This document shows positions 14,062 through 50,081 of a stretch of DNA of 64,000 nucleotides, piece after piece. The stretch is from Amycolatopsis aidingensis. GTDB taxonomy: Bacteria > Actinomycetota > Actinomycetes > Mycobacteriales > Pseudonocardiaceae. A program made the position numbers and the translations under genes. The DNA lies in contig NZ_CP076538.1 in assembly GCF_018885265.1 (NCBI RefSeq), positions 3,446,001 to 3,510,000 on the forward strand, given 5' to 3'. Positions within the stretch are counted from its first letter, which is position 1. The number at the start of each line of letters is the position of its first letter. The notes under the pieces were generated by a model. It saw nothing but the letters and a program-made list of their open reading frames with translations. It did no database searches and had not been told where the DNA came from.

Positions 14062-14062
14062 G

Positions 14063-17726: not shown

Positions 17727-17733
17727 TGCGCCG

Positions 17734-17979
17734 ATGAACGCACCCGCACTGTCCGCGGACCGGATCCGGGCCGATGTCGCCGGCCTGCTCGGCTGCGAGC
17801 CCGCCGAGATCGACGCGAACGAGAACCTTTTCGACCGGGGCCTCGACTCGGTCCGGGTGATGTCCCTTGTGGAGCGCTGGCGGGCGGAGGGGGCCACCGG
17901 CCTGGAGTTCCCCGACCTGGCCGAGCGGCCGGAACTGGCACACTGGACCGAGATCGTCGCCGGTGGTGCGGGCAGGTGA
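17734..17979 (+). CDS. Free-standing aryl carrier protein (ArCP)
   Basis: An 81-aa acyl/aryl carrier protein. The phosphopantetheine attachment motif is FDRGLDSVRVMSL with Ser39. It corresponds to the C-terminal domain of EntB, split off here as its own gene. It should receive DHB from the ligase and present it to the first condensation domain of the NRPS at 24333. It lies 7 bp after dhbE and overlaps the reductase gene by four bases. Start 17734 has a short upstream gap and GGAG nearby. Confidence 0.93.
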   Translation: MNAPALSADRIRADVAGLLGCEPAEIDANENLFDRGLDSVRVMSLVERWRAEGATGLEFPDLAERPELAHWTEIVAGGAGR

Positions 17980-18860: not shown

Positions 18861-18879
18861 CGTGGCGACCTCTCTCGTC

Positions 18880-18898
18880 TAAGGTAAGCCTACCCTAG
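18880..18898 (+). promoter_or_regulatory. Iron box before the siderophore importer operon
   Basis: TAAGGTAAGCCTACCCTAG fits the 19-bp IdeR/DmdR consensus with a few mismatches. It stands about 36 bp before the ATG of the binding protein, the expected position for an operator overlapping the promoter. Confidence 0.85.
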
Positions 18899-18934
18899 CA
18901 ACTGCTCTGGTTTTCTGGATGTCAAGGAGTACGC

Positions 18935-20949: not shown

Positions 20950-21965
20950 CGGTCCTCGCGGTGCCCGGCACGGGCAGGTCGGTCCACCTCGAACGCCGGA
21001 CGCTGGTGCTGGTGGTGGTGCTGCTCGCCGTGATCCTGGGCCTGGGTCTGCTGGGCCTGTGCTTCGGCGCGGACTGGGCGAGCCCGGGGGAGGCGTTCGC
21101 GGCCCTTGCCGGGTACGGCGACTCGGTGGTGGTGATCAGGGACTGGCGGCTGCCGCGGGTGCTGGCCGGTGCGGTGTTCGGCGCCGCGCTGGGGGTGGCC
21201 GGGGCGATCTTCCAGAACCTCACCCGCAACCCGATGGGCAGCCCGGACGTGATCGGCCTGGACGCGGGCGCCTACACCGGAGCCCTGATCGCGCTCACCG
21301 TGCTGTCCGGCACCTCGGCACAGCTCACGCTGAGCTCCGTACTGGGCGGGCTGGTGGTCGCGGCCGTGATCTACCTGCTCTCGATGGACGGCGGACTGTC
21401 CGGGCTGCGGCTGGTCGTGATCGGGATCGCGGTGAACGCCATCCTGACCGCGTTCAACTCCTGGATCGTGCTGCGGGCCGAACTGGAGATCGCGATCGCG
21501 GCCGTGGGATGGAGCGCGGGCTCGCTGAACGGGATCGACTGGGCGAACCTCTACCTGCCGTTCACGATCATCGCCTGCCTGCTGGTGCTGATGGCGACGC
21601 AGGCGCATGCCATGCACCAGACCGGGCTGGGGGACGCCGTCGCGGCCACCACCGGGGTGCGGCTGCACCGGCTGCGCCTGCTGATGGTGGTGGTCGGTGT
21701 TGGCTGCACCGCCACGGTGACCGCGGTGGCCGGCCCGATCGTGTTCATCGCGCTGGCCGCCCCACAGATCGGCCGCAGGCTGGCCAAGGCCCCCGGCGTC
21801 CCGCTGCTGCCCGCCGCGCTGACCGGTGCGGTGTTGTTGCAGGGCGCCGACCTGACTGCCCAGATGCTGCTGGCGCCGGTCGCCCTTCCGGTCGGCGTGG
21901 TGACCACCGTGATCGGCGGGTGTTACCTGATCTGGCTGCTGACCAAGGAAGTGAGGCGGGTATGA
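20946..21965 (+). CDS. Siderophore ABC transporter permease (FecCD family), second subunit
   Basis: A second FecCD permease of identical length (339 aa). VIRDWRLPRVLAGAVFGAALGVAGAIFQNLTRNPMGSPDVIGLDAGA is the family hallmark; VAGPIVFIALAAPQIGRRLAKAPG is the C-terminal loop. The GTG start overlaps the preceding stop. Two permease genes plus one ATPase gene is the FepD/FepG/FepC arrangement. Confidence 0.93.
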   Translation: MTVLAVPGTGRSVHLERRTLVLVVVLLAVILGLGLLGLCFGADWASPGEAFAALAGYGDSVVVIRDWRLPRVLAGAVFGAALGVAGAIFQNLTRNPMGSPDVIGLDAGAYTGALIALTVLSGTSAQLTLSSVLGGLVVAAVIYLLSMDGGLSGLRLVVIGIAVNAILTAFNSWIVLRAELEIAIAAVGWSAGSLNGIDWANLYLPFTIIACLLVLMATQAHAMHQTGLGDAVAATTGVRLHRLRLLMVVVGVGCTATVTAVAGPIVFIALAAPQIGRRLAKAPGVPLLPAALTGAVLLQGADLTAQMLLAPVALPVGVVTTVIGGCYLIWLLTKEVRRV

Positions 21966-22738
21966 GCACACGCCTGACCGCACGGGAGCTCACCCTCGGC
22001 TACGGCGACCGGGTGGTCTCGACCCGGCTGAGCCTGGACATCCCGGACGGTGCCTTCACCGCCATCGTCGGCCCGAACGCCTGCGGGAAGTCGACCCTGC
22101 TGCGCGCCTTCGTCCGGCTGCTGCGGCCGGACGAGGGGCAGGTACGGCTCGACGAGCGTGCGGTTGGCGCGTACCCGCCGAAGTCGCTGGCAAGGATGCT
22201 GGGTTTCCTGCCGCAGGATCCGCTGGCCCCGGAGAACATCAGGGTGCGGCAACTGGTCGGCCGTGGCCGCTTCCCGCATCAGGCGTTGCTGTCCACCTGG
22301 TCGCCGGCGGACGAGCGGGCCGTCACCAAGGCGATGTCCGACGCTGGCGTGGCAGACCTGGCCGACCGGCCGGTGCACGAACTGTCCGGGGGCCAGCGGC
22401 AGCGTGCCTGGGTGGCGATGGTGCTGGCCCAGCAGACCCCCTACCTGCTGCTCGACGAGCCGACGTCCTTTTTGGACATCACGCACCAGTACCAGCTGCT
22501 CCGTCTGCTCGCCCGGCTGCGCGACGAGGGTCGCACGGTCATCACGGTGCTGCACGACATAAACCAGGCCTGCCGCTTCGCCGATCATGTGGTGGCGATG
22601 CGGGACGGCCGGATCGTCGCCGAGGGAACGGCTGCGGACATCGTGGACGCGGAACTGCTGAAGGAGGTCTTCGACCTGCCAAGCATCGTCGTCCCGGACC
22701 CGGTGACCGGCACCCCGATGGTCGTACCGACACTGTAG
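21962..22738 (+). CDS. Siderophore ABC transporter ATP-binding protein
   Basis: A 258-aa ATPase of the FepC type. Walker A is GPNACGKST, the Q-loop region reads LGFLPQDPLAPENIRVRQLVGRGRFPHQ, the signature is LSGGQRQR, Walker B is YLLLDEPTSFLD, and the switch histidine lies in VLHDINQACRFADHVVAMRDGRI. It overlaps the second permease gene by ATGA and completes the importer. A possible hairpin terminator follows. Confidence 0.95.
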   Translation: MSTRLTARELTLGYGDRVVSTRLSLDIPDGAFTAIVGPNACGKSTLLRAFVRLLRPDEGQVRLDERAVGAYPPKSLARMLGFLPQDPLAPENIRVRQLVGRGRFPHQALLSTWSPADERAVTKAMSDAGVADLADRPVHELSGGQRQRAWVAMVLAQQTPYLLLDEPTSFLDITHQYQLLRLLARLRDEGRTVITVLHDINQACRFADHVVAMRDGRIVAEGTAADIVDAELLKEVFDLPSIVVPDPVTGTPMVVPTL

Positions 22739-22753
22739 TGGTTCGGTTCGGCG

Positions 22754-22773
22754 CGGACACGGTCTGCTGTCCG
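22754..22773 (+). terminator. Weak hairpin after the importer operon
   Basis: CGGACA-CGGTCTGC-TGTCCG gives a 6-bp stem with an 8-nt loop, 16 bp after the ATPase stop. There is no T tract, as is common in actinomycetes. This is weak evidence. Confidence 0.35.
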
Positions 22774-22838
22774 GATCCCGTCGCGGAATGGCGAAACACC
22801 CGCTGTCGTCTGGTGCTGCCTGGTTCTATCTTCACCTC

Positions 22839-23264
22839 ATGACCGTCGTCGCGCCGATTCTGATCGGGATCCTGTACGTAGTGCTCAATTCCCTCATCCG
22901 CGTGCCGCATCGCCGCCGGTTCAACGCGATCATGGTGGCTGGTGCGGGTGCCGCGTATCTCAGTGGCGGGGGTTTCGGTGCATGGGAGTTCGTGTTCACC
23001 GCGGCGGTGACCTATTGTGCCTATCGTGGTCTGGAGTCCTGGACGTTCGTCGGTATCGCGTGGTTGCTGCACACCGGGTGGGATTTGTTACAACATCTGG
23101 ATGGGAATCCGATTATCCCGTTCGCGGAGCATTCCTCGCTCGGTTGCGCGATCTGCGATCCGGTGATCGCCGCGTGGTGCCTCACCGGCGGCCGGTCCAT
23201 CCGCGAACTCGTCCGCGGCCCGAGGTGCGCGCCCGCAGGTTCCGTCCGCAACCCGTCCGCATAG
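22839..23264 (+). CDS. DUF6010-like small membrane protein
   Basis: A 141-aa protein with several hydrophobic segments (VVAPILIGILYVVLNSLI, AIMVAGAGAAYLSGGGFGAWEFVFTAAVTYCAY). NAIMVAGAGAAYLSGGGFG, WLLHTGWDLLQHLDGNPIIPFAEHSSLGCAICDPVIAAW is a pattern I associate with the DUF6010 family, whose function is unknown. ATG 22839 was chosen over one 51 bp upstream because family members start directly at the first membrane helix. It has lower GC and different codon use (CGT, GGT, TTG) from the flanking siderophore genes, which suggests it is a later insert together with the next two genes. Confidence 0.75.
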   Translation: MTVVAPILIGILYVVLNSLIRVPHRRRFNAIMVAGAGAAYLSGGGFGAWEFVFTAAVTYCAYRGLESWTFVGIAWLLHTGWDLLQHLDGNPIIPFAEHSSLGCAICDPVIAAWCLTGGRSIRELVRGPRCAPAGSVRNPSA

Positions 23265-23303
23265 CCCGGTCGGACGTACCGGAGTCGATGGCCTGATCGT
23301 GCG

Positions 23304-23720
23304 CTACCGGCTGGTTCGGCGGATCGCCACGGACGAGGTGAGTGCGGCGACGACCCAGACGAGCGGACCGGAGAGTCCGCCGATGGGATCGACGTGGCCG
23401 GGCAGCACCATGACGATCACGAAGGCGGCGTCGATCAGGCCGAGGACGACGAGATTGAGCCAGTAGCCGAACCAGTCGTTACGCCGATTGAGGAACCAGG
23501 CGACGGCGATCGCCTGGGCGCCGAACACGGTGGCACAGACGAAAAACATCATGCTTTCCGCCTCGAGTTCACTGGCAGACAACCCGTCTGCTCCCGCGGA
23601 GCCCACCATCGAGATCCCGAGGCCGAGATGGAGCAGTCCCCACAGCAGGTAAGCGGCAGCACCGGCCAGGGCCCAGCGGGAGCGCTGCGGACCGGGGCGG
23701 ATGACAACGGTATCGTTCAC
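23304..23720 (-). CDS. Hypothetical four-helix membrane protein
   Basis: A 138-aa membrane protein with about four hydrophobic helices (WALAGAAAYLLWGLLHLGLGISMV, MMFFVCATVFGAQAIAVAWFL, YWLNLVVLGLIDAAFVIVMVL, PLVWVVAALTSSVAI). I do not recognise the family with confidence. The GTG start (MNDTVVIRP) is inside a perfect palindrome shared with the divergent MarR gene, so it is very probably repressed by that regulator. It converges with the DUF6010-like gene. Confidence 0.75.
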   Translation of the reverse strand: MNDTVVIRPGPQRSRWALAGAAAYLLWGLLHLGLGISMVGSAGADGLSASELEAESMMFFVCATVFGAQAIAVAWFLNRRNDWFGYWLNLVVLGLIDAAFVIVMVLPGHVDPIGGLSGPLVWVVAALTSSVAIRRTSR

Positions 23721-23744
23721 GACGTGAAAGATACACGTCGTGAA
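23716..23744. promoter_or_regulatory. Palindromic operator for the MarR regulator
   Basis: TTCACGACGTG (23716-23726) and CACGTCGTGAA (23734-23744) are perfect 11-bp inverted repeats around a 7-nt spacer. The size fits a MarR dimer site. Both divergent GTG codons (23720 minus and 23724 plus) lie in its left arm. Confidence 0.8.
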
Positions 23745-24212
23745 CTAACTGGCCCCGCCGGTCCTGACCAGGTAGTGGCCGAAGCGCTGACGGCAACCCG
23801 TCAGCTGCACTCGGCGACCGAGGAACTCCTCGACGCCGCGGCCGAACGCTATGGCATCAACCGCAACGACCTGCGCTGCCTGGAGATCCTCGAGCGAGAG
23901 GGACCGATGCAGCCAGGTCGGCTGGCCCAGGTCAGCGGGTTGAGTCCGGCCGCGGTCACCAAGGTCCTCGATCGTCTCGAACGGGCCGGGTACGTCATCA
24001 GGCCCGGCGCGGGTGCCGACCGGCGTGCCCGCCCGGCGCAGGTCTCGGAGCGCCACCCGCAGCGGCGCCGCGAGATATGGCAGCCGGTGATCGACGCCGC
24101 TCACACCGCCTTGGCCGGCCAGAGCCCCGAACAGGTCCGGGCGCTCACCGCTGTTCTCACCGGCCTCGCCGAAGCCAACCATCGAAGCGCCCGGTACCTG
24201 CGGCGGTGCTGA
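23724..24212 (+). CDS. MarR family transcriptional regulator
   Basis: A 162-aa winged-helix repressor. Helix 1 is QVVAEALTATRQLHSATEELLDAAAERYG, followed by LRCLEILEREGPMQPGRLAQVSGLSPAAVTKVLDRLERAGYVIRPGAGADRRARPAQVS, which is the MarR recognition helix and wing. The start is uncertain: GTG 23724 gives full length but lies in the operator, while GTG 23775 would still keep helix 1 and leave the palindrome outside the gene. It is divergent from the small membrane protein, its likely target, and its own gene is probably autoregulated. Confidence 0.88.
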   Translation: MKDTRRELTGPAGPDQVVAEALTATRQLHSATEELLDAAAERYGINRNDLRCLEILEREGPMQPGRLAQVSGLSPAAVTKVLDRLERAGYVIRPGAGADRRARPAQVSERHPQRRREIWQPVIDAAHTALAGQSPEQVRALTAVLTGLAEANHRSARYLRRC

Positions 24213-36283: not shown

Positions 36284-36394
36284 CAGGCCACTGTGGTTAC
36301 CACATTCGTTGATTTCCGCCAGCCAACTCCGGTACGCAAAACCCACCGCTACGGAAGTTGGGGCGGCCGCCGCGGCCTCGGCGAGGCTGGTCCT

Positions 36395-37243
36395 ATGACG
36401 AGCACAAGCGAGCGCGGGGACAGGCGGCCTGCGGGCCAGTTCTCGCTCGATGGCAAAGGCAGCCTGGTGACGGGCGCCTCCCGCGGGATCGGGCGGGCGA
36501 TCGCGATCGGCTACGCCCAAGCCGGCGCGGATGTCGCTCTTCTCGCCCGGAGTACCACCGCGCTGGAGGAGGTCGCCGACGAGATCGAGGGGTACGGGCG
36601 ACGCGCCCTCGTCCTGACCTGCGATGTCGGTGACGGCGGGCAGGTCGACGACGCGATCGCCACGGCGATATCCGAGTTCGGCCAGCTCGACGTGGTGGTG
36701 AACAACGCGGGCGGGTTCGACTGGGCGGGTCCGGTGCTGGACCTGGAGCAGCAGGACTGGAGCGCCGTGCTGCGGATCAACCTCGAATCCGTCGTCCGGG
36801 TCTGCCGCGCGGTCGGCAGGCATCTCGTCAAGCGCGGCAGCGGCTCGGTGGTCAACCTGTCCTCGATAGCAGGTCTCGGCGGGGTGCCGATGCTGGCGCC
36901 CTATGCCGTCGCCAAGGCGGGCATCCTGTCGCTCACCCAGACCCTCGCGGCGGAGTGGGCGCAGTCGGGGGTACGGGTGAACGCCCTGACGCCCGGCTGG
37001 GTCCGTACCGAGCTGACCGAGGCATTTCTCGGCAATCCTGAGGCAGCGGCCGGCCTGCTCAGTGCCGTTCCGGCCAGCCGGTTTGGAGAGCCCGATGACG
37101 TCGTCGGCCCGGCGATCTTCCTGGCCAGCGACGCATCGCGGTTGGTGACCGGCGCCTGCCTGACCGCCGACGGCGGCACCACCTGCTACGTGGGCGGTCC
37201 GGCCATGCTCCAGCTGACGGCGCTGGGCCGGGTCGCCGTCTGA
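36395..37243 (+). CDS. FabG-like short-chain dehydrogenase of the PKS cassette
   Basis: A 282-aa SDR with TGASRGIGRAIAIGYAQAGADVALLAR, NNAGG, and the catalytic LSSIAGLGGVPMLAPYAVAKAGI (Ser, Tyr-x3-Lys). VRVNALTPGWVRTELTEAF and TGACLTADGGTTCYVG close the classical fold. The YxxxK spacing is of the 3-ketoacyl reductase/alcohol dehydrogenase type, in contrast to the FabL-type reductase in the big PKS. ATG 36395 was preferred because the upstream extension is not SDR-like. It leads a run of same-strand genes with short gaps, ending at the acyl-CoA oxidase; it may reduce a ketone on the chain or tailor the product. Confidence 0.88.
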   Translation: MTSTSERGDRRPAGQFSLDGKGSLVTGASRGIGRAIAIGYAQAGADVALLARSTTALEEVADEIEGYGRRALVLTCDVGDGGQVDDAIATAISEFGQLDVVVNNAGGFDWAGPVLDLEQQDWSAVLRINLESVVRVCRAVGRHLVKRGSGSVVNLSSIAGLGGVPMLAPYAVAKAGILSLTQTLAAEWAQSGVRVNALTPGWVRTELTEAFLGNPEAAAGLLSAVPASRFGEPDDVVGPAIFLASDASRLVTGACLTADGGTTCYVGGPAMLQLTALGRVAV

Positions 37244-37291: not shown

Positions 37292-38677
37292 ATGCCTGCG
37301 CGAACCGTCCACCTCTTCCCGGGACTCGGGGCCTACTCCACCGGTGCGCTGCGGCAAGCGCGCGCCGACCATCCCGAGGTGACCGCCACCTTCCGCGTGC
37401 TCGACGATGTGGCCGTGGCCCGCGGCCTGCCCGAGGTGTCCGGTGCACTCTTCGGTGCCCACGCGCCCTCCCTCGGCGAGCTGCTGGAGCAGCCGGCGGA
37501 AGTCCTCCAGCTCGCCATCTTCGGGGTGTCGGTGGCGACCCACGAGGTTCTCCTTCGGCTCGGCGGCGAGCCCGATCTGCTGCTGGGGCACAGCTTCGGT
37601 GAGATGGCCGCGCTGGTCGCCGCGGGTGCCTTCGACCTCGCGGACGGCGCCCAGCTGGTCTGCGCCCGCTGCGCTGCCCTGCGGGACTGGGAGGGCAGGG
37701 GCATGATGGCGGCCATCGGCACGCACGAGGCCGCCGCACGGCACCTGGCCGGGCTGCTGGACGAACCCGGGCTGGTGGTCGGCTGCCACAACGCCCCCCG
37801 GCAGAGCGTGCTCAGCGGTCCGGTGCCCGCGATCGACCGGGCCGAGCGGGTGGCCGGGGCGCTGGAGCTTCCCTACGCACGCCTGCAGCTGCCCTATGCC
37901 TCGCACCATCCCGCGATGCGGCCCGCCGTGCCGGTGTTCCGCGAGCTGATGGACGGCGTGCGCCAGCGGCAGCTGCGGCTCCCGGTGTACTCGCCGATTC
38001 ACCACCGGCACTACACCGACGAGGACGACCTCAAGCAGGAGCTCGCCGAATGCCTCGTGCTGCCGGTGGACTTCGTGCGAGCCGCGCGTGACCTGCACGC
38101 CCGGGGCTACACGCGGTTCGTCGAGGCCGGGGCACTGAACGCACTCACCCGGTGCGTCGAGCTGACCGTACCCGGGGTCGAGGTGGCGGCACCGCTGGTC
38201 GACCCCGACCGGGAGCTGGCCGGGTTGCACGCGGCGGCAGGAGTGGCCCCGGAGCGTTCCCCGCAGGTGCCAAGGCCCCGCGACCCCCGGCCTGCCGACG
38301 GCGCGGCCACCGTGGTCGCACCCGCCGCCGGACCCGAGCCGGCCGAACCGGTCAGGCAGGCCGACACGGTCTCGCCCGAGCCGCCCGAGCAGGCCCGGGC
38401 CAACGGCCACCCGCCGAGAGAGACGGTGCTCGCCGAACTGCGCCAGATGTACGCGGAGGCACTGGAGTACCCGACCGACGTACTCACCGCGGACGCGATG
38501 CTGGAGGCCGAGCTCGGGGTCGACTCGCTGAAACAGACCTCCCTGCTGTCCCGGGTGGTCGACCGGTTCGGGATGACCGGTGAGCGGGACCGGGTGCGGG
38601 TATGGGAGCTGCCCACCCTCGGCCACATCGCCGACTACGTAGCCGAAAGGTCCGGAAGGCGGGAGGCCGTATCGTGA
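37292..38677 (+). CDS. Acyltransferase-ACP didomain protein
   Basis: A 461-aa protein. The N-terminal malonyl/acyl-transferase has the nucleophile elbow GHSFGEM with Ser101 and the histidine motif YASHHPAM; VEAGALNALTRCV closes the domain near residue 290. A Pro/Ala-rich linker of about 80 residues follows. The C-terminal acyl carrier protein has ELGVDSLKQTSLLSRVV with Ser412 as the phosphopantetheine site. It overlaps the following PKS by GTGA. It appears to supply, in trans, the AT and the only ACP for that PKS, as in split PUFA-synthase-like systems. Extender specificity cannot be read. Confidence 0.92.
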   Translation: MPARTVHLFPGLGAYSTGALRQARADHPEVTATFRVLDDVAVARGLPEVSGALFGAHAPSLGELLEQPAEVLQLAIFGVSVATHEVLLRLGGEPDLLLGHSFGEMAALVAAGAFDLADGAQLVCARCAALRDWEGRGMMAAIGTHEAAARHLAGLLDEPGLVVGCHNAPRQSVLSGPVPAIDRAERVAGALELPYARLQLPYASHHPAMRPAVPVFRELMDGVRQRQLRLPVYSPIHHRHYTDEDDLKQELAECLVLPVDFVRAARDLHARGYTRFVEAGALNALTRCVELTVPGVEVAAPLVDPDRELAGLHAAAGVAPERSPQVPRPRDPRPADGAATVVAPAAGPEPAEPVRQADTVSPEPPEQARANGHPPRETVLAELRQMYAEALEYPTDVLTADAMLEAELGVDSLKQTSLLSRVVDRFGMTGERDRVRVWELPTLGHIADYVAERSGRREAVS

Positions 38678-41600
38678 GTCACCAAGACGGTATCTTCGCG
38701 GGTCAGGTAGTCGTGGTCACCGGCGGCGCCCGCGGCCTCGGCCGGGTGATCAGCAGGGCGTTCGCCGAACGCGGCGCCCATGTCGTCATCAACTACTTCC
38801 ACGCCACCGAGGATGCCCCTGCGTTGCTGGCCGAGCTCACCGAAGCGGGTCACTCCGCGGAGCTGATCCGCGCGTCCGTGGCGAACAAGTCCCAGGTGGA
38901 CACCATGTTCGACACGGTGACCGAGCGCCATGCCGGGGTGGACGTACTGGTCAACAACGCCGCTTCCGGCGCCCTGCTGCCACTGGACGAGCTGGACGAG
39001 TCGCACTGGCAGCGTGCGCTGGACACCAACCTCCGGGGCAGCCTGTGGTGCGCCCGGCGGGCCGCGGCGCTGATGGCCGGCCGTGGTGGCGGCGCGATCG
39101 TGAACCTGTCCTCGATCGGCAGCACACTGGTGATCAGCGACTATGCCACGATCGGCACGGCGAAGGCGGCGGTGGAGTCGCTGACCCGCTACCTCGCCGT
39201 GGAGTTCGCCGCGGACGGCATCCGGGTCAACACCGCCTCCGGCGGCCTCATCGACGGCGCCGTGGCCGGGATGTTCCCGGACGCGGGCCTGCTGGCCGAC
39301 CAGGTCCGCGCCGCGACCCCGCTGGGCAACCGCCTGGGGCGGGAGGAGGAACTGGCCGAGGTGGTGACCTTCCTGGCCTCCCCACGTGCTTCCTGGATCA
39401 CCGGCCAGACCGTCGTGGCGGACGGCGGGTTGTCCCTCGGCTCCATGGCGCTGTCCCCGCGGCGGCCCGCCAGGACCGGCGAGGCGGGCCCGGAGGGTTC
39501 CGGCGACGAGATCGCGGTCGTCGGCGCGGGCGTGCTCGCCCCTGGCGCCAGCACGCCCGAGGAGCTGTGGCAGGTGCTCTCCGGATCCGAGCACCGGTTC
39601 GTCGAGCCCACCCGGTTCGACATCGACGCCTTCCACTCCACCGATCCGGATGCCGAGGACCGGACCTACACCCGGCGGTCCGGATTCATCACGGATTTCG
39701 TTCCGCACCCCGCCCTGCGCGCGGAACTGGAGCGCGGCGCGCTGCCCAGCACCGAGTCGACCACCGTGTGGTTGCGGCACTGCCTGCATACCGCACGGGA
39801 AGGGGTGAGCCTGCGCGCTGCGGACCGATGTATCGCGACCTTCGGCTACACCGCAGACGGCAGCCAGGAGCTGGAGGAGTACCTCGTGTTCTCCGGCTTC
39901 TCCCGGTTGCTGGGCCAGGACCCCGGAAACCGGCTGGCTCGCAGGTACGCCAGGCTGCCCGCCCCGCCAGGGGAGTTCCTGCCGCACCGGGTGGGGCGCA
40001 ACGCCATCGCGGGCCTGCTGCCGGACCGCACCGAACTGGTCATGGTGGACACCGCGTGCTCGTCCTCGCTGTACGCGATCGACCTCGGCATGAAGGCGCT
40101 GCGGGAGGGGACCTGCGAGGTGGCGGTCTGCGGTGGCGCCTTCGCCTACAGCGCCCGCAACCTTGTTCTGTTCTCGAAGCTGCACGGCCTTTCCAAGACC
40201 GGTGAGGTGCGCCCGTTCGACCGGGAAGCGGCCGGGGTGCTGTTCTCGGACGGAGCGGGCGTGGTGCTGCTGAAACGGCTCGACCGGGCCCGCGCGGACG
40301 GCGATCGCGTCCTCGGTGTCATCGACGGTGTGGGTCTGTCCTGCGATGGCAGGGGAAAGGCCATCTACGCGCCGAACGAGCGTGGGCAGCAGCTGGCGGT
40401 GCGGCGAGCCTACGCGGCGGAAGGGCTCGATCCCTCCTCCGTGCGGTGGGTGGTGGCGCATGCGACCGGCACCCAGGCCGGGGACAGCACGGAGGTGGCG
40501 AGCCTGGACAAGGCCGCGGGCAGCGGTCCGCCCGCGTTGCTCTCCTCCAACAAGGCGATCGTCGGGCACACCGGGTGGACCGCGGGCATGGTGTCGGTGG
40601 TGCAGGCCCTGCAGGGACTCGCCCGCGGCGAAGTACCGGCCCAGCGCTACCTGAAGCGGCCGATCCCGGCACTGGACGGCACCCGGTTCACCGCTCCGAC
40701 CGAGGCCGCCCGGCTGCCCGCGGCTCGCACCCGGCGCGCAGCCGTGTCCTCCTTCGGCTTCGGCGGGACCAACGCGCATCTGGTGCTCGGTTCCGGGCCG
40801 GCCGACGACCTGCGACCCGCTCCGGAGTGCCTGCCCGACGACATCGTCGTCGTCGGCTGGTCGGCGGACACGCCGGGACGGCCGGACCTGGTGAGCTGGC
40901 TACGCGGGACCGGTCCGGCACCGGAGCGGTCGTTCGGGGAGGACTACCCGATTCCGGACTTCACCGAGGTCCGGTTGCCCCCGGCGACACTGCGCAATAT
41001 GGACCGCGCGCAGATCATGCTGCTCAGGGCCGCGGCCGCGCTGCCGGAGGAGGTACGTGCCGTTGCCTGCCGGATGCGGGAGGCGACCGGCGTGATCACC
41101 GGGCATATGGGTCCGACCAGGCGCGCCGTGCACTACGCCCTGCGCTGCTACCTCGGCGATGTGGAAAGCGTGCTGGATGGCGGGCTGGACCCGCAGCTCA
41201 CGGAGCGGGTCCGCGCGCTGGTGCCGCCGAGCACCGAGGACGCGTTTCCCGGCATCATGCCGAACATCATCCCGGCGCGCCTGGCCTCCCTGTGGGACTT
41301 CCGTGGCCTCAACCTCACCGTCGACACCGGACCCGACGCCAGCCTGGATGCCGTCCGGACGGCGGAACGCTACCTGCGCCACGGTGATCTGGACCTGGCC
41401 GTGGTCGCCGGGGTCAACGGGAACAGCACCGCGGAGCTCACCGAGGTGCTGGCCGGCTCGGGCGAGCAGGACCAGCTCGCCGAGGGCGCCTTCGTCGTCA
41501 TCCTGGCCAGGGAGTCCACCGCACGGGCCGAGGGGCTGCCGGTGCTGGCGCGGGTGCGGACCTCGCTGACCGACATCGAGCCCGGTACCCGGCCGCGCGC

Positions 41601-44130
41601 GATGGCGCCGCTGCGCGGGTCGGGCCGCACCTACCTGGCCGCCGACGGCATGGTGGCGCTGCTGGCCCGGCTCACCGGTGCCCAGGGGCCGGGCCGCCTC
41701 GGCAGCGTGCGGGAGTGGGGGCCGTCGCTCGAGGTCGATGTGCCCGCGGGCGGGGAGACCACGCCCGCGGCCACCGGGCGTCCCGTCCTGCGTAGCGTGC
41801 CCCGGCTGGCCCCCGCGCGGCCGCGGCTGGTGCGGGCACCCCGCCCGGCACTGCCGCCGAACACCGTGCTGCTGGTGCCGGATGCGTCCCTGCTGGATGG
41901 CTGGGAACTGCCGCCGGAGGTGGTGCCGGTCATCGCGCCCGCGGATGCCGCGCGGGAGGAAGCCGTGCTGGCGCGCTCGCTGCCGTCGGAGCCGTTCCGG
42001 ATCGAGCACATCCGGTTGCTGGCCGATCTCGGCGCGCGCGGCGGGCCGGCCGATGCGCTGGGCATGGTCGGCCGGTTGCGTGGCCTGCACGACCTGCTTC
42101 ACCTCGCGGCGCAACGGTGGATCGCTGGCACCGGCGACTCGCTCGGCGTGGTGCTGCTGGACGCGGTACGCGATGGCGTGCCGCATCCCGCAGCGGGTCC
42201 GTTCACCGGCATGGTCAAGAGCCTGGCCAGGGAGTTGCCGGAGGCGCTGAGCCTGGCCCTGCTGACCGATACCGGCGACCCGCGGAGCGGACTCGACCAG
42301 TGGGCCGTCGAGTCGGGCCGGGACCACGAGCCTGCGGTGGTGGTCCGGGATGGCGAACACCGGCTCGCCTACACCCTGGACACCGCGGAATGCCCGTCCG
42401 GGCCCGCCGCGGAGCCGCTGCCTCCCGGTGCGGTGGTGGTAGCGGCAGGCGGCACCCGGGGGCTGACCGCGGAACTGCTGGTCGGGCTCGCGGCCCGCTG
42501 CAGGCCGACGGTGTACCTGCTCGGCAGGTCCGCACCCGCCGCTCAGGATCTGCCGGACCGCGCCACCTTCCTCGCCCGCCAGCGGTCGGCCCGCCCGGAG
42601 CATGGTGTGGCGGAGCTGAACGCCGAGTACGACCGCCTGCGCGCCGCCGCGGAGAGCGCGCGCACGATCCGCAGGATCGCCGAGCACACCGGCGAGGGAT
42701 GGGTGCACCATGTGACCTGCGACCTGACCGATCCGGAGTCCGTGCGGGCGGCCATCGACCGGGTACATGCCGCGCACCCACGGGTCGACCTGCTGCTCAA
42801 CGCCGCCGGTGTGCACCGCGGTGGCAGCGTCCGGGCCACCTCGCTGGAGCAGGCGCGTACGGTGCGGGACACGAAGCTGCTCGGCTACCTGAACCTTGTC
42901 GGCGCCTTCGCCGGACGACGACCGCACCGCTGGGTCAACTTCGGTTCCCTGCTCGCCGTTCTCGGCTGGCCGGGCGAGGCCGACTACTGCTCGGGCAACG
43001 ATCTGCTTGGGCTCGCCGCACCGTGGCAGTCGCGCTTCGGTGCAGGGCACGAGACGACGCTGGCATGGGCGCTGTGGGACGAGGCCGGTTTCGCCAGCGA
43101 GCCGGTTACCCGGGACCTGTTGCGCGGCCAGAACATCCTGACCGGACTGTCTGATCAGGACGGTGTAGGACTCTTCCTGGAAGAGCTGGCTGCGGGGCTG
43201 CCGGACCCGTTGGTCACCCAGCTCGGCAGAACCGAGCGGAACTGGCTGTCGAGCCTGCGCCGCGGCCCGTTCCCGTTCCGTGGCGGGCCGGACACCGGGA
43301 TGCTGTGGCAGCCGGACGGCACCATCGACGGCTATCTGCGGCAGCACCTCCTGCGCGGGGTGCCCACCCTTCCCGGTGCCTTCGTGCTCGAGCTCGCCGC
43401 CGCGGTGGCGGCGGCGAGCGGGCCGGGCGCCGTTCTCCGGTTCCGGGACCTGACCTTGCACGCTCCGGTGACCGCACTGCCAGGGCGCACCCCGACCTAC
43501 CGGGTGACGGCCGAGCGCGCGGGCGAATCGGTGGAGGTACGGGTGCTCAGTGACACCCTCGCACCGGACGGGCGGGTGCTGCGCAAGGACCGCATGCACG
43601 CCCGGCTCGTGGTGGAGCCCGGGCCGCTGCCCGCGACCGGCGAAGCCGGGGAGACCGTGTTCGTGTCACTGGGCGGGTCCGGTCGGCGGCCGCGGCACTA
43701 CGGGACCGGGGACTCCCTGATGCTGTCCGGGCCCTTCCGCTCGCTCACCGATGTGGACGACCGGTCGGCCACGGCCACCGCCAGATTCGCCCCGGAACTG
43801 GGACAGTGGGCGGAGCGGTTCGCCGCGTTCCGGCTTCCGGTGCTGCTGGTGGACGCGATGGTCCAGCTGGGCGCCCTGATCGAGCAACGGGCCGAAGGGC
43901 AGGAACCGGCGGTTCCGGTGGGGTTGGATTCGGTGGAACTGGGCACCACGCACAACGACGTGGCCCTGCTGGATGTGCATGGTCCGGAGATCCTGCTGCG
44001 GGCGCGGCAGGGCGATATCGCGGCGGTGGCGCCGGACGGCAGGGTGCTGGCGCGGCTGCGGGGGCTGCGCTGGTCCGGCCGTCCGGACCTGTCCCTCGCC
44101 GCCACCGAGCCCGGGAGGTCGGTGCGATGA
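38674..44130 (+). CDS. Iterative PKS fusion: FabL-type ER, KS, inactive KS (CLF-like), KR, DH
   Basis: An 1818-aa protein. Residues 1-265 are an SDR whose active site YATIGTAK has Tyr-x6-Lys and whose C-terminal half (SGGLIDGAVAGMFPDAGLL, ITGQTVVADGGLSL) follows FabL, an enoyl-ACP reductase. Residues about 285-690 are an active KS: DTACSSSL (Cys about 462), HATGTQAGD, NKAIVGHTGW. Residues about 700-1060 resemble a second KS in which the cysteine site reads DTGPDASL, so it is inactive like a chain length factor. A KR follows (AAGGTRGLTAELL near 1253, NAAG near 1376, NFGSLLAVLGWPGEADYCSGND), then a hot-dog DH (HLLRGVPTLPGAF near 1556). No AT or ACP is in cis; the preceding gene supplies them. 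The GTG start overlaps that gene's stop. Confidence 0.9.
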   Translation: MSHQDGIFAGQVVVVTGGARGLGRVISRAFAERGAHVVINYFHATEDAPALLAELTEAGHSAELIRASVANKSQVDTMFDTVTERHAGVDVLVNNAASGALLPLDELDESHWQRALDTNLRGSLWCARRAAALMAGRGGGAIVNLSSIGSTLVISDYATIGTAKAAVESLTRYLAVEFAADGIRVNTASGGLIDGAVAGMFPDAGLLADQVRAATPLGNRLGREEELAEVVTFLASPRASWITGQTVVADGGLSLGSMALSPRRPARTGEAGPEGSGDEIAVVGAGVLAPGASTPEELWQVLSGSEHRFVEPTRFDIDAFHSTDPDAEDRTYTRRSGFITDFVPHPALRAELERGALPSTESTTVWLRHCLHTAREGVSLRAADRCIATFGYTADGSQELEEYLVFSGFSRLLGQDPGNRLARRYARLPAPPGEFLPHRVGRNAIAGLLPDRTELVMVDTACSSSLYAIDLGMKALREGTCEVAVCGGAFAYSARNLVLFSKLHGLSKTGEVRPFDREAAGVLFSDGAGVVLLKRLDRARADGDRVLGVIDGVGLSCDGRGKAIYAPNERGQQLAVRRAYAAEGLDPSSVRWVVAHATGTQAGDSTEVASLDKAAGSGPPALLSSNKAIVGHTGWTAGMVSVVQALQGLARGEVPAQRYLKRPIPALDGTRFTAPTEAARLPAARTRRAAVSSFGFGGTNAHLVLGSGPADDLRPAPECLPDDIVVVGWSADTPGRPDLVSWLRGTGPAPERSFGEDYPIPDFTEVRLPPATLRNMDRAQIMLLRAAAALPEEVRAVACRMREATGVITGHMGPTRRAVHYALRCYLGDVESVLDGGLDPQLTERVRALVPPSTEDAFPGIMPNIIPARLASLWDFRGLNLTVDTGPDASLDAVRTAERYLRHGDLDLAVVAGVNGNSTAELTEVLAGSGEQDQLAEGAFVVILARESTARAEGLPVLARVRTSLTDIEPGTRPRAMAPLRGSGRTYLAADGMVALLARLTGAQGPGRLGSVREWGPSLEVDVPAGGETTPAATGRPVLRSVPRLAPARPRLVRAPRPALPPNTVLLVPDASLLDGWELPPEVVPVIAPADAAREEAVLARSLPSEPFRIEHIRLLADLGARGGPADALGMVGRLRGLHDLLHLAAQRWIAGTGDSLGVVLLDAVRDGVPHPAAGPFTGMVKSLARELPEALSLALLTDTGDPRSGLDQWAVESGRDHEPAVVVRDGEHRLAYTLDTAECPSGPAAEPLPPGAVVVAAGGTRGLTAELLVGLAARCRPTVYLLGRSAPAAQDLPDRATFLARQRSARPEHGVAELNAEYDRLRAAAESARTIRRIAEHTGEGWVHHVTCDLTDPESVRAAIDRVHAAHPRVDLLLNAAGVHRGGSVRATSLEQARTVRDTKLLGYLNLVGAFAGRRPHRWVNFGSLLAVLGWPGEADYCSGNDLLGLAAPWQSRFGAGHETTLAWALWDEAGFASEPVTRDLLRGQNILTGLSDQDGVGLFLEELAAGLPDPLVTQLGRTERNWLSSLRRGPFPFRGGPDTGMLWQPDGTIDGYLRQHLLRGVPTLPGAFVLELAAAVAAASGPGAVLRFRDLTLHAPVTALPGRTPTYRVTAERAGESVEVRVLSDTLAPDGRVLRKDRMHARLVVEPGPLPATGEAGETVFVSLGGSGRRPRHYGTGDSLMLSGPFRSLTDVDDRSATATARFAPELGQWAERFAAFRLPVLLVDAMVQLGALIEQRAEGQEPAVPVGLDSVELGTTHNDVALLDVHGPEILLRARQGDIAAVAPDGRVLARLRGLRWSGRPDLSLAATEPGRSVR

Positions 44131-45938
44131 ACGACGACCTGCGTACCGCGCTCGGCGCGCTGGTCCATGGCGATCCCGCTGAGGCGCTGCCCGCCGACCT
44201 GGGCGAGGCGTGCGCTGGCGGGCCGTTCGCCCCGGCCGAAGGGCTGACCTACGAGCAGCAGTGCCTGCTGACCTACCGGCGGATGCGCTGGCTCGGGGAC
44301 CGGCTTCCACCGGCCAGCACCTTGCTGGCCAGGCCGGCTCAGCTGTTCACCGTCCTCGAATGGTGCGCGGTCACCAGCCCGCCGGTGTTTCTCGGGATGA
44401 CCTTGCACACGTGTCTGAGCCTCGGCGCCATCCAGGAGTTCGGTTCCGGCCGGGACGATCTCGGGGACCATATCGGCAGGCTCGACTCGATGGACTCTTT
44501 CGGTTCGCTCCTCGTCACCGAAGCAGGCCGGGGCAACAGCCACATCGGTATCCGCACCGAGGCCCGGTACGACCCGGCGACCGGCGGGTTCGTGCTGACC
44601 ACGCCGACCAGGGACGATGCCAAGTTCATGCCGAACGTCGGGCTTGCCGGGGTGCCGAAGCTGGGCGTGGTGTACGCCCGGTTGCGGGCCGGGGGAGCCG
44701 ATCACGGGGTGTTTCCGTTCGTACTGCCGATCCGGGACGCCGACGGTCCACGTCCCGGCATCGAGATCACGCCGTTGCCGGAGGCACCGTACCTGCCGCT
44801 GGACTACGCGACCATCACCTTCGATGGGGTGCGGGTGCCGGCCCGGGGCCTGCTGCACGACTCCGCGCGGCTGTCGGCGGATGGGACGTTCCGGGATCCG
44901 CTCGGCCACGGGGACGAGCGGCTGGCACGTTCGCTGGACGTACGGCACCGGGCCTGGGTGGCCTCCGCGGCCGCACTGGGTGCGGCGATCCGCGCCAGTG
45001 CCGCGCTCGCCATCCGGTTCTCGGCCGGACGGAACACGTTGTCGCGCGCCGCGCCCGAGGGCCCGGTCCTGCGTTATCGGAGCCAGCAGCGGCCGCTGTA
45101 CGGCTGCCTCGCGACCGCGTACGCGATGACCAGCCTGATCAACCAGGTCAAGCGCACGCTGGTGGCTTCGGCGCAGGTACCGGATCCGGCCTGGACCCGA
45201 GGGCCAGGGTTCAACCGGACGATCGGGCTGGTCAAGGCGATGGCCGGCTGGGAGGCCGAACGGGTAGCGGCCGAATGCGGGCAACGCTGCGGCGCACACG
45301 GGATGTTCGGCAGCAGCGGGTTCGCCGCGTACCAGGGTCTCGGCCATATGCTCGGGCCGGCAGCGGGGGACAGCTACCTGATCGTGCTGGAAGCGGCACG
45401 GGCGATGGCGGCCGGAACCGCCTACCGGCCGCCATCGCCAGGGATGGTGCAGCTGAACCGGCGAGCGGTGGGGGAGCCGCAGGTGGTGCGGGAGCTGGTG
45501 GCGGCACGGGAACGCTCGCTGCACGCCATGCTGTCCGGCGAGCTGGACACGGCCGCGCGCCGCGCGCAGGGGCCGTTCCAGGCCTGGGACAACCGCAGCT
45601 GGCTGGCCCGCGAGCTGGTCGAGGCGCACGGAACCCGGCTGGCTGTCGAGTGCCTGCTGGCGGACGCACGGACGCTGGCCGAGCCGGGGCGTACGGCGCT
45701 GGAACTGCTGTGCGCGTTTTTCGGTCTCCGCGAGGCGTGGCGCCATTCCGGCTGGTATCTGAGCACGGAGGCGCTTACTGTCCGGCAGGTGCGGGCGATC
45801 CCCGCCCGCCTCAACGGGATCTGCGAACGCCTCACCGCACACGCGGAACCCCTCGCCGGGGCCCTGCTGCCTGCGGGTCTCGACCCGTGGCCGGGTCCTG
45901 CGGGCGTGCTCGGCCCGGCCGTGGCCGGGCACCGGTGA
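44127..45938 (+). CDS. Acyl-CoA oxidase/dehydrogenase-like flavoenzyme
   Basis: A 603-aa protein of peroxisomal-type acyl-CoA oxidase length. The N-terminal flavin-binding part shows SPPVFLGMTLHTCLSLGAIQEFGSG, TEAGRGNSHIGIRTEARYD, and the oxidase-like VLTTPTRDDAKFMPNVG where dehydrogenases have a shorter loop. PGFNRTIGLVKAMAGWEAERVAAECGQRCGAHGMFGSSGFAAYQG matches the second alpha domain; the C-terminal ACOX domain follows. It should insert a trans-2 double bond, passing electrons to oxygen. ATG 44127 overlaps the PKS stop as ATGA, so it is made with the PKS and probably acts on its acyl product. Confidence 0.88.
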   Translation: MNDDLRTALGALVHGDPAEALPADLGEACAGGPFAPAEGLTYEQQCLLTYRRMRWLGDRLPPASTLLARPAQLFTVLEWCAVTSPPVFLGMTLHTCLSLGAIQEFGSGRDDLGDHIGRLDSMDSFGSLLVTEAGRGNSHIGIRTEARYDPATGGFVLTTPTRDDAKFMPNVGLAGVPKLGVVYARLRAGGADHGVFPFVLPIRDADGPRPGIEITPLPEAPYLPLDYATITFDGVRVPARGLLHDSARLSADGTFRDPLGHGDERLARSLDVRHRAWVASAAALGAAIRASAALAIRFSAGRNTLSRAAPEGPVLRYRSQQRPLYGCLATAYAMTSLINQVKRTLVASAQVPDPAWTRGPGFNRTIGLVKAMAGWEAERVAAECGQRCGAHGMFGSSGFAAYQGLGHMLGPAAGDSYLIVLEAARAMAAGTAYRPPSPGMVQLNRRAVGEPQVVRELVAARERSLHAMLSGELDTAARRAQGPFQAWDNRSWLARELVEAHGTRLAVECLLADARTLAEPGRTALELLCAFFGLREAWRHSGWYLSTEALTVRQVRAIPARLNGICERLTAHAEPLAGALLPAGLDPWPGPAGVLGPAVAGHR

Positions 45939-47672: not shown

Positions 47673-49019
47673 GTGGGTCGGGCACCCAATGTTCGGTTGC
47701 GCTCCTTGCTGGACGAGGCGCGGTGGAACGGTGCGGAACTCGCGCGCGCGGTCAACGCGACGGCGGTCGAAGCGGGTGTGCGGACCGGCTACGGGCGCGC
47801 CTCGGTGGCCAACTGGCTGGCAGGCAGCCGCCCGCGGGGGAAGGTGCCGGAGCTGATCGCGGAGGCGCTGTCGCGGCGGCTCGGCCGGACCGTGACTGCG
47901 AGCGACACCGGTTTCGGCCACAACGGTGAACCTGTGCGTCGGCGGACACACCACGGCCAGGACGAACTCGGCCGCGGCGCCGACCGGGTACCCGCGGGCT
48001 CAGCGGTTTCACGTGCACCGGGCGTGTACAGCGTGGCTGGACTGGATGTGCCGCGATGGGCGCAGGTGCTGCCAGCCGACCGGGAGCGGCCCCGTGCACC
48101 GCGTGGCCCGTGGCGGCTGAGCGGCACCGAGCTGGACGCGGCGACGACGATGCTCACCGCGTTCTCGCGCGCCGAACGCGCCTGCGGGGCGGGGCCGGTT
48201 CGTGCCGCGCTCACCGAATACCTCGAGACCACGATCCACCCGTTGCTGGGAGCCGTCGGTGCGACCTCTGCGGTCCGCCGGAGTTTCCTTTCCGTCGCGG
48301 CCCGGCTGCGTTACCTATGTGGCTTCCTGTACTTCGACGACGAGTTGCATGGTGCGGGTCAGTGGCATTACCGAAGCGCACTCCAGCTCGCCGTCGAGGC
48401 GGGTGATCCGACCACCTATGCGATCGCGCTGAGGGCGTTGAGTGTGCAGGCACGCGCACTCGGCCACCATCGGGAGTCCGTACGGCTGGCCGAGGGCGCG
48501 GTGGAGGCCGGCACCGTGCGGGCCGTACCGGAGGTGCGGGCGTTCCTCGTCGGGCAGCTCGCGGTCGCGCGGGCCACGCTCGGCGAGCGCAGGGCCGCCG
48601 TGGCGCACCTGTGCGAGGCCGAGCGCATCGTCGAGCGGATGAGCGGCGGGATGGCCGCGGTCGGCGCGTACCACCGGGCGGCGCTCGCCCACCAGCGCGC
48701 GGCCGTGGCCGCCGGCCTGGGTGATCGGGCGGGCGCGATGACCGCGCTGGAGGATTCGATTCGGCATCGCCCTTCGACCGAGCTGCGTTCGCGGGCCGTA
48801 CTGCTGGCGAAGCTGGCCGAGCTGAGGCTCGACGCCGGGCAGGTGGAGCAGGCCGGCGAGATCTGGCATCGGTTTCTTGACGACTACCCGGTCGTCCGCA
48901 GCGGCCGGGTGGACACGGCGTTGCGGACGTTACGGTCGCGGCTACTGCCGCACCGGAAGCTGCCGGGAGTCGAGGAACTGCTGGGCCGCGCTTCCGCTGT
49001 CCGCGCAGGCGGTGGCTGA
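47673..49019 (+). CDS. TPR-type cluster regulator with N-terminal HTH-like region
   Basis: A 448-aa protein. The N-terminus (NVRLRSLLDEARWNGAELARAVNATAVEAG...YGRASVANWLAGSRPRGKVPELIAEAL) looks like an XRE-like HTH variant common in streptomycete TPR regulators. From about residue 150 it is helical with repeats (AIALRALSVQARALGHHRESVRLAEGAVEAG, ALEDSIRHRP..., LAELRLDAGQVEQAGEIW). The GTG start follows an AT-rich 228-bp gap, which is the likely promoter region. It overlaps the convergent IspH-like gene by 78 bp at the 3' end. The target is unknown; it probably acts on this locus. Confidence 0.82.
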   Translation: MGRAPNVRLRSLLDEARWNGAELARAVNATAVEAGVRTGYGRASVANWLAGSRPRGKVPELIAEALSRRLGRTVTASDTGFGHNGEPVRRRTHHGQDELGRGADRVPAGSAVSRAPGVYSVAGLDVPRWAQVLPADRERPRAPRGPWRLSGTELDAATTMLTAFSRAERACGAGPVRAALTEYLETTIHPLLGAVGATSAVRRSFLSVAARLRYLCGFLYFDDELHGAGQWHYRSALQLAVEAGDPTTYAIALRALSVQARALGHHRESVRLAEGAVEAGTVRAVPEVRAFLVGQLAVARATLGERRAAVAHLCEAERIVERMSGGMAAVGAYHRAALAHQRAAVAAGLGDRAGAMTALEDSIRHRPSTELRSRAVLLAKLAELRLDAGQVEQAGEIWHRFLDDYPVVRSGRVDTALRTLRSRLLPHRKLPGVEELLGRASAVRAGGG

Positions 49020-50042
49020 GCGCTCGGCCGTCGTTCCGGCAGGGAAGGTGGCCGGGTCGACGGTCTCGGACATCATCCGGCGCCGTACGACCGAGGCCGG
49101 CCCCAGGCCGGTGAGGACCCCGATGACGTTCGGCAGCAGGTCGGGCGGGGCGGTGTCGGTGACGGCGAGGCCGATGCTCTCGGCCCCATCGAGCCAGTCC
49201 GGCCGGATGCGTTCCGGACCGGCGACCAGCTCGGCGGAGACCCCCGCCTCGGCGGCGAACCGGAGCGCGTCCCTGACGTCCATCGTGTCCGGGCTACCGA
49301 GGACGAGCATGGTGTCGCAAGTGGACGCAACGGTGCGGATCGTCTCCTTCCAGTCCGATGCCGCGTAGCAGTATCCGTGCGGGTGCGCACCCCGGATGCC
49401 GGGGTAGCGGTCCCGCAGCAGCTCGGCGATCCGGACGGCCTCCTCGATCACCGCGCCGGGCTGGATGACATAGGCCAGACGGGTGGGGCGATCGCCGAGG
49501 CCGGCGACGTCCTCGGCAGAGGTGACGACCGTTCGCCCGGCCACGGGTGTGGGCGGCCCGGTGCTGGCCGCCCGGCTGTCCACGAGGATGACCTCCTCGT
49601 CCTGGTCCTCGAAGTACCGGGCCTCGGCCCGGCTCAGCGCGCCGTGCAGGCAGCCCTGTGCATGGGTCGCGTCCGAGCCGATGGCGAGGACGATGCGCCG
49701 GGTCCGCCACAGCGCGGACCAGGTGGTGATGGCGTACCGTGCCGCCGATATCGCGTCCCGGTCTGCCTGGTGTGCCGCCACCGCGAAGCCGATGACCTGG
49801 CCGGTGCGGTCGACGTAGGAGGCGGTCAGGAGTATTCCTTCCGCGGAGCCGGTTCGGGCGACGAACGGTCGGCCCGGTTGCTGTACCGGGTAGCCGAGGT
49901 CTCGGAGTGTGGCCGCGATCAGCGGGGTGGCGGGTGAGCGAACCAGACCTCGCGTGGGATGCAGGAAGCAGCCGACGCCCACCGTGCCCCGCATGGTCCA
50001 ACGGGTGCCGAACTCCCGGCGTTGCACAGATCGGTTCATCAT
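48942..50042 (-). CDS. Divergent IspH/LytB-like protein
   Basis: A 366-aa protein. From about residue 165 it follows 4-hydroxy-3-methylbut-2-enyl diphosphate reductase: TSAEDVAGLGDRPTRLAYV, then YCYAASDWKETIRTVASTCD where IspH has ICYATQNRQ, VLVLGSPDTMDVRDALRFAAEAG where IspH has VVGSxNSSNSxRL, and IRPDWLDGAESIGLAVTDTAPPDLL where IspH has the WL-G-x-x-x-G-V-T-x-G-A-S-x-P block. The N-terminal third is not clearly IspH; the GFCAGV and DATCP cysteine motifs are not found, though DATHAQGCLHG may be a relic of one. So it may lack the normal [4Fe-4S] site. ATG 50042 or 50039 is the likely start, after GAGGT. A housekeeping role is unlikely. Confidence 0.7.
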   Translation of the reverse strand: MMNRSVQRREFGTRWTMRGTVGVGCFLHPTRGLVRSPATPLIAATLRDLGYPVQQPGRPFVARTGSAEGILLTASYVDRTGQVIGFAVAAHQADRDAISAARYAITTWSALWRTRRIVLAIGSDATHAQGCLHGALSRAEARYFEDQDEEVILVDSRAASTGPPTPVAGRTVVTSAEDVAGLGDRPTRLAYVIQPGAVIEEAVRIAELLRDRYPGIRGAHPHGYCYAASDWKETIRTVASTCDTMLVLGSPDTMDVRDALRFAAEAGVSAELVAGPERIRPDWLDGAESIGLAVTDTAPPDLLPNVIGVLTGLGPASVVRRRMMSETVDPATFPAGTTAERSATACADSGSAAQQFLDSRQLPVRQ

Positions 50043-50048
50043 GCACCT

Positions 50049-50081
50049 CACTTCGTAGAGTAATCACACAAGCACGAAGTG
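50049..50081. promoter_or_regulatory. Inverted repeat upstream of the IspH-like gene
   Basis: CACTTCGT (50049-50056) and ACGAAGTG (50074-50081) are perfect 8-bp inverted copies 17 nt apart, just ahead of the IspH-like start. The right arm overlaps motif copy 2 (ACACAAGCACGAAG, 50066-50079). It could be an operator. Confidence 0.5.

Follow-up and report, generated by a model that had tools for sequence, protein, structure and literature searches.

The window analysed here, a 64,000-nucleotide stretch of the genome of the soil actinomycete Amycolatopsis aidingensis (7.66 Mb, single contig, NZ_CP076538.1; positions 3,446,001 to 3,510,000), contains a cassette of four genes on the + strand that encode a stand-alone short-chain dehydrogenase/reductase (SDR), an acyltransferase-acyl carrier protein (AT-ACP), a megasynthase with the domain order SDR-ketosynthase-chain length factor-ketoreductase-dehydratase (SDR-KS-CLF-KR-DH), and a flavoprotein with the fold of an acyl-CoA oxidase (ACOX). 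We lean towards reading these genes as an autonomous cassette that encodes a type I lipid synthase, iterative and reducing, which is split over two proteins and makes a methyl-branched, largely saturated acyl-ACP whose chain is then tailored. In the proposed mechanism, the AT would charge the one ACP, carried on the same protein, with extender units, probably methylmalonyl-CoA, and the partner megasynthase would act in trans on that ACP. The KS-CLF pair would condense the units and set the chain length, the KR would reduce, the DH would dehydrate, and the fused FabL-type SDR would reduce the enoyl group to yield an acyl-ACP that is methyl-branched and largely saturated. Tailoring of the chain would fall to the stand-alone SDR and the flavoprotein, the latter more likely as an oxygen-activating hydroxylase or similar than as a dehydrogenating oxidase, because its catalytic glutamate is lost. 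The domains, residues, gene order and conservation reported below are read from the sequence or from structure models. Iteration, the extender unit, the direction of the SDR reaction and the reaction of the flavoprotein are what we infer. The genes and domains are as follows.

36293..37243, + strand: stand-alone SDR, FabG-like, with YxxxK, first gene of the cassette (Pfam adh_short_C2; an alternative start is possible at ATG 36395)
37292..38677, + strand: AT-ACP protein, 461 residues (Pfam Acyl_transf_1 and PP-binding; GHSFG, GVDSL)
37298..38209, + strand: AT domain with YASH specificity motif (Pfam/profile matches, alignment)
38435..38641, + strand: single ACP domain, Ser412 (PP-binding match, alignment)
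38674..44130, + strand: SDR-KS-CLF-KR-DH megasynthase, 1,818 residues (start GTG 38674)
38674..39459, + strand: N-terminal SDR, predicted FabL-type enoyl reductase, Tyr157-x6-Lys164 (PDB 3oic, NCBIfam FabL, alignment)
39505..40866, + strand: active KS, Cys462, His596, His632 (Pfam, motifs, alignment)
40867..41745, + strand: CLF, a KS fold without active-site Cys (VDTGPD replaces VDTAC; model matches PfaC KS-CLF)
42433..43083, + strand: KR, Lys1401, Ser1425, Tyr1438, Asn1442 (Pfam, motifs, alignment)
43330..44073, + strand: DH of the polyketide synthase (PKS) double-hot-dog type, HxxxGxxxxP His1558, Asp1727 (Pfam, motifs, alignment)
44127..45938, + strand: acyl-CoA-oxidase-fold flavoprotein without catalytic Glu, 603 residues (domain matches, fold model, alignments)

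At each junction among the last three genes, the open reading frames share four bases. The megasynthase most likely starts at GTG 38674, in a GTGA overlap with the AT-ACP stop, rather than at ATG 38602, and the 1,818-residue form is also the form present in the database (P0005). The ACOX-like gene starts at ATG 44127, in an ATGA overlap with the megasynthase end, which agrees with the translational coupling of the oxidase gene proposed in an initial annotation made from the sequence alone. That annotation had also placed the AT-ACP on one protein and an enoyl reductase (ER), KS, inactive KS, KR and DH on another, as the reading frames and domains bear out; its gene set was incomplete, in that the stand-alone SDR and the siderophore genes nearby were overlooked. 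We count the stand-alone SDR as the fourth member of the unit, judging from synteny, because the four-gene order is kept, on one strand, in all five close loci that were readable: the window, Saccharothrix algeriensis (L009), and the genomes G131, G158 and G087. In the latter four, the SDR is 58-70% identical and lies immediately 5' of the AT-ACP gene. The complete unit is rare, as AT-ACP matches at E 1e-90 or better occurred in 4 of 120 family genomes, our own included (the others being G087, G131 and G158). Of 36 related PKSs, 22 had a listed AT-ACP on what is presumably the same contig, and 11 had a listed ACOX there; contig identity was assumed from equal length and the lists were collapsed at 90% identity, such that both counts are possibly too low.

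A search with the megasynthase scored 7,976 candidates and retained 2,371 at an E-value of 0.001 or better. The best 120 of these, which were the relatives inspected, comprised proteins of Pseudonocardiaceae-type actinomycetes with about 53-63% identity over most of their length, together with proteins from Burkholderia, Kribbella and Kitasatospora with about 36-50% identity, often over part of their length. With so many proteins retained, and with 27 or 28 of the 28 aligned rows agreeing at the catalytic columns, the family signal lies far above chance. The initial annotation had presented the domain order as without characterised precedent. We found no paper on SDR-KS-CLF-KR-DH among the results listed from the open-access literature, with subscription journals mostly outside that search; by the same 2,371 database matches, the architecture itself is common, in actinomycetes and Burkholderia, and its uniqueness was rejected.

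In a KS tree of 60 rows, built by a quick method and carrying a long-branch warning from the program, 46 family rows separated from 14 other KSs (SH-aLRT 99), which include no named Pfa reference. The window KS lies within a subclade of 19 (SH-aLRT 89, or 99 with one row added). Three sister megasynthases without a full SDR (G001, G030 and G024) form no single group on this tree and require at least two changes, so the SDR looks like a removable option; in G024 the match starts at query residue 226, and the protein may retain an SDR remnant. A scan of genome contigs with the family alignment, which used two generic KS patterns, gave 80 loci: L009, L010 and L011 are family members, and some others served as outgroups in the tree. 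L011, a 6.9-kb contig with little besides the PKS, stayed outside the gene-order comparison.

Some relatives exhibit variations in architecture. In certain sisters (G014, G015b and G018a; L110-L113, L122-L123 and L134, comprising same-genus regions and a Streptomyces plasmid), the PKS is split behind the CLF into two genes, and Kitasatospora family entries carry a cytochrome P450 domain in the same chain as the PKS. In G030 (L116-L117), an SDR-less KS-CLF-KR-DH protein is accompanied by an AT-ACP and an ACOX-like protein with the catalytic Glu.

The top PDB match of the N-terminal SDR was Bacillus subtilis FabL (3oic, E 4e-54), with Tyr-x6-Lys aligned, and NF005975, the NCBIfam FabL model, was the best among the SDR models (252.7 bits). 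All 28 rows have the Lys and 27 have the Tyr (our own row is included in this and the following row counts), and by a regular-expression search of the best 120 of the 2,371 matches, 116 contain the Tyr-x6-Lys motif and 118 the motif of the KS. This spacing is also that of FabI, and it sets the fused SDR apart from the stand-alone SDR of the cassette, which has YxxxK. FabL, the nearest solved relative, is free-standing, whereas the SDR described here is fused to a PKS. The original call of a FabL-type SDR in cis is supported, with enoyl reduction as its predicted role, and so is the statement that the ER is not a PfaD flavoprotein: the best hit in a PfaD search of the genome reached 24.1 bits against a cut-off of 449.25.

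Every one of the 28 rows has the Cys/His/His of the KS and the Lys/Ser/Tyr/Asn of the KR, and 27 have the His and Asp of the DH, the remaining row being a gap. No Cys occupies the CLF active-site position in any of the 28 rows, where VDTGPD stands instead of VDTAC. A model of the KS-CLF region (811 residues, pLDDT 90.0) matched the PfaC KS-CLF structure 6riw first in Foldseek (E 3.2e-49, TMq 0.73 over 899 columns), ahead of a next match at E 5.2e-37 and TMq 0.46; the VIA-align list for this model spans the KS half only. The DH is of the PKS kind, scoring 33.8 bits with PF21089 (cut-off 27) and 29.3 bits with PF14765 (cut-off 23.7), and the Pfam search gave no FabA-type match at E 0.001.

Polyunsaturated fatty acid (PUFA) synthases carry FabA-type dehydratase/isomerase domains. 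The likeness to these enzymes that was noted at the outset therefore holds for the PfaC-like KS-CLF and fails for the DH. The megasynthase also scored below the cut-offs of the PfaA model TIGR02813 (234 bits against 1010.1) and of the NCBIfam PKS_plus_SDR model NF045894 (337.6 against 1740). We dropped the strict PUFA-synthase label because the DH is PKS-type rather than FabA-type, there is one ACP rather than a tandem set, and PfaD is absent; on this domain content, the cassette does not qualify as a PUFA synthase in the strict sense.

Comparisons with published systems draw on the available portions of the papers cited. The PfaA-PfaD synthases (Types A/B, PMC3098273) have in common with the cassette a KS-CLF didomain, a KR, an AT, an ACP and an iterative lipid logic, but the cassette has one KS rather than two, one ACP rather than 4-6, the AT-ACP as a separate protein, a PKS-type DH, and an SDR in place of the PfaD flavoprotein. 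The Pfa KS-MAT-ACPn-KR protein, in which MAT is a malonyl-CoA acyltransferase, bears tandem ACPs, unlike the single ACP on the AT protein here. Shulse and Allen 2011 (PMC3098273) distinguished 20 pfa-like types, in which the ERs named are PfaD or its Type E counterpart. Their Type R secondary lipid synthase, KS-MAT-CLF-ACP(3-6)-KR, shares with the cassette a KS, CLF and KR in one chain, but that chain holds the MAT and several ACPs, with no DH or ER named in the text at hand. In its broad sense, 'secondary lipid synthase' rests in the same source on KS phylogeny with validated fatty acid synthase (FAS)/PKS lipid pathways and does not exclude single-ACP clusters; the available main text makes no mention of 'Burkholderia' or 'FabL'. 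In hybrid PUFA-synthase-like clusters (PMC13291983), pfa-like genes adjoin a nonribosomal peptide synthetase (NRPS) and an ER-KS fusion also occurs (pfaD-pfaA), but the ER is PfaD, and no SDR-KS-CLF-KR-DH protein partnered by an AT-ACP is named in the portion consulted. For the Burkholderia relatives, the afc cluster of the Burkholderia cepacia complex was considered as a possible home; it seems not to be one, the term 'ketosynthase' being absent from the text available (PMC12186527).

The extender unit was assessed from the AT. We aligned 115 of the best 120 listed AT-ACP matches. Among rows with at least 50% identity, the specificity site reads YASH in 62 of 64 and YAAH in two, whereas YASH occurs in none of the 51 rows below 50%; 49 of these share the final FH of the malonyl motif HAFH. 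In work on 6-deoxyerythronolide B synthase (DEBS), YASH versus HAFH separates methylmalonyl from malonyl ATs (PMC6164871). The YASH of the close rows favours a methyl-branched product over a polyene. As for the carrier, a motif scan over 8-48 kb of the window located two sites in the NRPS, one in the AT-ACP and none elsewhere, apart from a fourth match inside the DH, consistent with the single ACP originally noted. Eighteen loci from other genomes had AT-ACP matches; 10 of these are AT-ACP genes directly before a PKS, which fits use of the ACP in trans, and eight are ATs inside other PKSs.

Several observations weigh against the reading we favour. At the second AT signature, 63 of 64 close rows read GHSFG, and not GHSQG, which is the methylmalonyl-type motif. 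Among the AT stretches of the collected loci (n = 99), GHSFG occurs with YASH in two and GHSQG with YASH in one. Since the signature misfits and this small control is indecisive, the extender call is mixed, the two motifs disagreeing, and we would place methyl branching at about even or a little better. The FabL score lies below its curated cut-off of 328, and Phe replaces the SDR Tyr in one of 28 rows. In G087, the AT-ACP match contains one TGA and the ACOX match is partial (405 residues). No conserved release gene, thioesterase or ligase was seen for the cassette, and to our knowledge no chemistry is known for any family member.

An alternative is that the cassette makes a PUFA-like polyene, with the SDR active in some cycles only, or acting as a second ketoreductase, and double bonds kept. 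The PfaC-like KS-CLF, the sub-threshold FabL score and the repeated occurrence of sisters without a full SDR would all suit such an enzyme; nevertheless, we regard it as unlikely given the Tyr-x6-Lys with FabL spacing in nearly all of the inspected matches, the intact KR and a DH that is not a FabA-type dehydratase/isomerase. Of the 'unusual polyene or branched lipid' first suggested, the polyene is thus made less likely by the full reductive set, while branching is favoured by one of the two AT motifs.

The autonomy of the cassette was weighed against its surroundings. A catechol-siderophore region lies 5' of it, with 2,3-dihydroxybenzoate (DHB) and iron-siderophore uptake genes at 12266-24212, an NRPS and a major facilitator superfamily (MFS) exporter. 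The DHB genes encode an isochorismatase, a 3-deoxy-D-arabino-heptulosonate 7-phosphate (DAHP) synthase, an SDR, an isochorismate-synthase type protein and an AMP ligase; the carrier motif scan found no aryl carrier protein beside them. The NRPS (3,480 residues) has five condensation/epimerization (C/E) and two adenylation-peptidyl carrier protein (A-PCP) units, and terminates in a C domain without a carrier. All these genes share a strand with the cassette, at short distances from one another, and the cassette might instead supply the lipid part of an amphiphilic siderophore, its acyl chain being joined to the DHB-peptide of the NRPS, whose carrier-less terminal C domain would suit this role. 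S. algeriensis has the same siderophore genes (NRPS 66%, EntE-like 85%, MFS 69%) 27.6 kb from its cassette, a placement with a chance of about 0.8% in its 6.88-Mb contig (one case, post hoc), and the part of PMC13291983 at hand describes metallophore clusters of Streptomyces that contain pfa-like genes. Against this, the NRPS occurs in 17 same-genus genomes (59-63% identity, terminal C domain; E 1e-60 match in 33 of 60), and the same 60 genomes have no close AT-ACP or ACOX, the best match being 42% for each. Conversely, G131 and G158 have the cassette and no match to the NRPS or DHB ligase in the flanks read (46.2 and 55.9 kb), and the flanks read in G087 hold only unlike NRPSs, of up to 41% identity. 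The first NRPS module also resembles EntF/MxcG, which take DHB and not a fatty acid. Because the NRPS is found without a close cassette in 17 genomes and the cassette without the NRPS in three genomes of two other genera, we rejected the siderophore link as the principal explanation and keep it as a possible, though improbable, one.

We return to the branched-lipid cassette and its last gene. The flavoprotein model (pLDDT 91.9) has the fold of an acyl-CoA oxidase (Foldseek E 4.8e-25), in which the Glu of a YEGDN motif is the catalytic base. In alignments with plant oxidases, an Ala faces this Glu. The alignment of 46 of the 47 sequences found (the shorter P0153 was omitted) has Ala in 27 rows, Gly in seven and Glu in 12 at this column. 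All 28 rows with at least 47% identity have Ala or Gly, and Gly also stands there in G131 and G158; the ACOX-like protein adjoining the SDR-less PKS of G030 retains the Glu. Without this base, the usual double-bond formation is unlikely, at odds with the original proposal that the oxidase adds a double bond after release. That the loss is kept across the close subfamily fits a changed reaction and not decay, and acyl-CoA-dehydrogenase-fold enzymes lacking the Glu can be monooxygenases. Least likely among the alternatives is an acyl-CoA/ACP oxidase of the ordinary kind, which would introduce a 2,3 double bond with another acidic residue as base: the fold and the largely retained TExGxG, QQ and CGAHG stretches, presumably flavin-site parts, agree with it, and Asp415, two positions past the lost Glu, could substitute, its column being acidic in 28 of 28 close rows, although the rows that retain Glu have this Asp as well, and residues 258-414, where isovaleryl-CoA dehydrogenase (IVD)-type enzymes would be expected to have their alternative base, contain no column acidic in at least 27 of the 28. 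A literature search on oxidases without the catalytic glutamate found no paper, and a plasmid search gave no ACOX copy of at least 60% identity, the best being 37.5% among the matches listed (best 10 of 45 records).

More tentatively, and at somewhat below an even chance, the cassette may represent a distinct class of bacterial lipid synthase, in which a PfaC-like KS-CLF core is combined with a cis FabL-type SDR as ER and a methylmalonyl-type AT to make methyl-branched saturated chains, and a dedicated ACOX-fold flavoenzyme has acquired a new reaction, perhaps an oxygenation, along with the loss of its base. Mycocerosic acid synthase, an iterative, reducing and methylmalonyl-using enzyme, would yield the same class of product, a methyl-branched reduced chain, but is a single chain (KS-AT-DH-ER-KR-ACP) with a medium-chain dehydrogenase/reductase (MDR)-type ER and no CLF. 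The peroxisomal acyl-CoA oxidases (1is2, 1w07) share the whole fold and several conserved stretches with the flavoprotein, which differs in its Ala/Gly for Glu. If the proposal is true, an SDR stands in for both of the enoyl reductases customary in PKS and PUFA systems, the length of a branched chain would be set by a CLF, and a widespread gene family for which we found no paper gains testable chemistry. The base-less ACOX-fold protein makes a good candidate for a flavoenzyme with a new reaction, and a comparison of sisters that have the SDR with those that lack it would be a natural test of its role.

Some neighbouring genes are worth recording. In S. algeriensis, a wax-ester-synthase/diacylglycerol acyltransferase (DGAT) gene (L131:9255-10715) ends 34 bases 5' of the stand-alone SDR of the cassette, and its product is a possible release enzyme; no such gene was found among the window neighbours scanned. 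Between the siderophore genes and the cassette of this species (L130-L131) lie genes for a C-A-PCP NRPS, an acyl-CoA dehydrogenase, flavin adenine dinucleotide (FAD) and pyridine-nucleotide-disulphide oxidoreductases and a P450, which we take to resemble a dithiolopyrrolone cluster. On a plasmid of Paraburkholderia ginsengisoli (L133), genes for an acyltransferase, an SDR-KS megasynthase, a P450-named protein, an ABC/FtsX transporter and a phosphopantetheinyl transferase form a single run. Within the window, a LytB/IspH-like protein is encoded beside the cluster (48942-50051, - strand).

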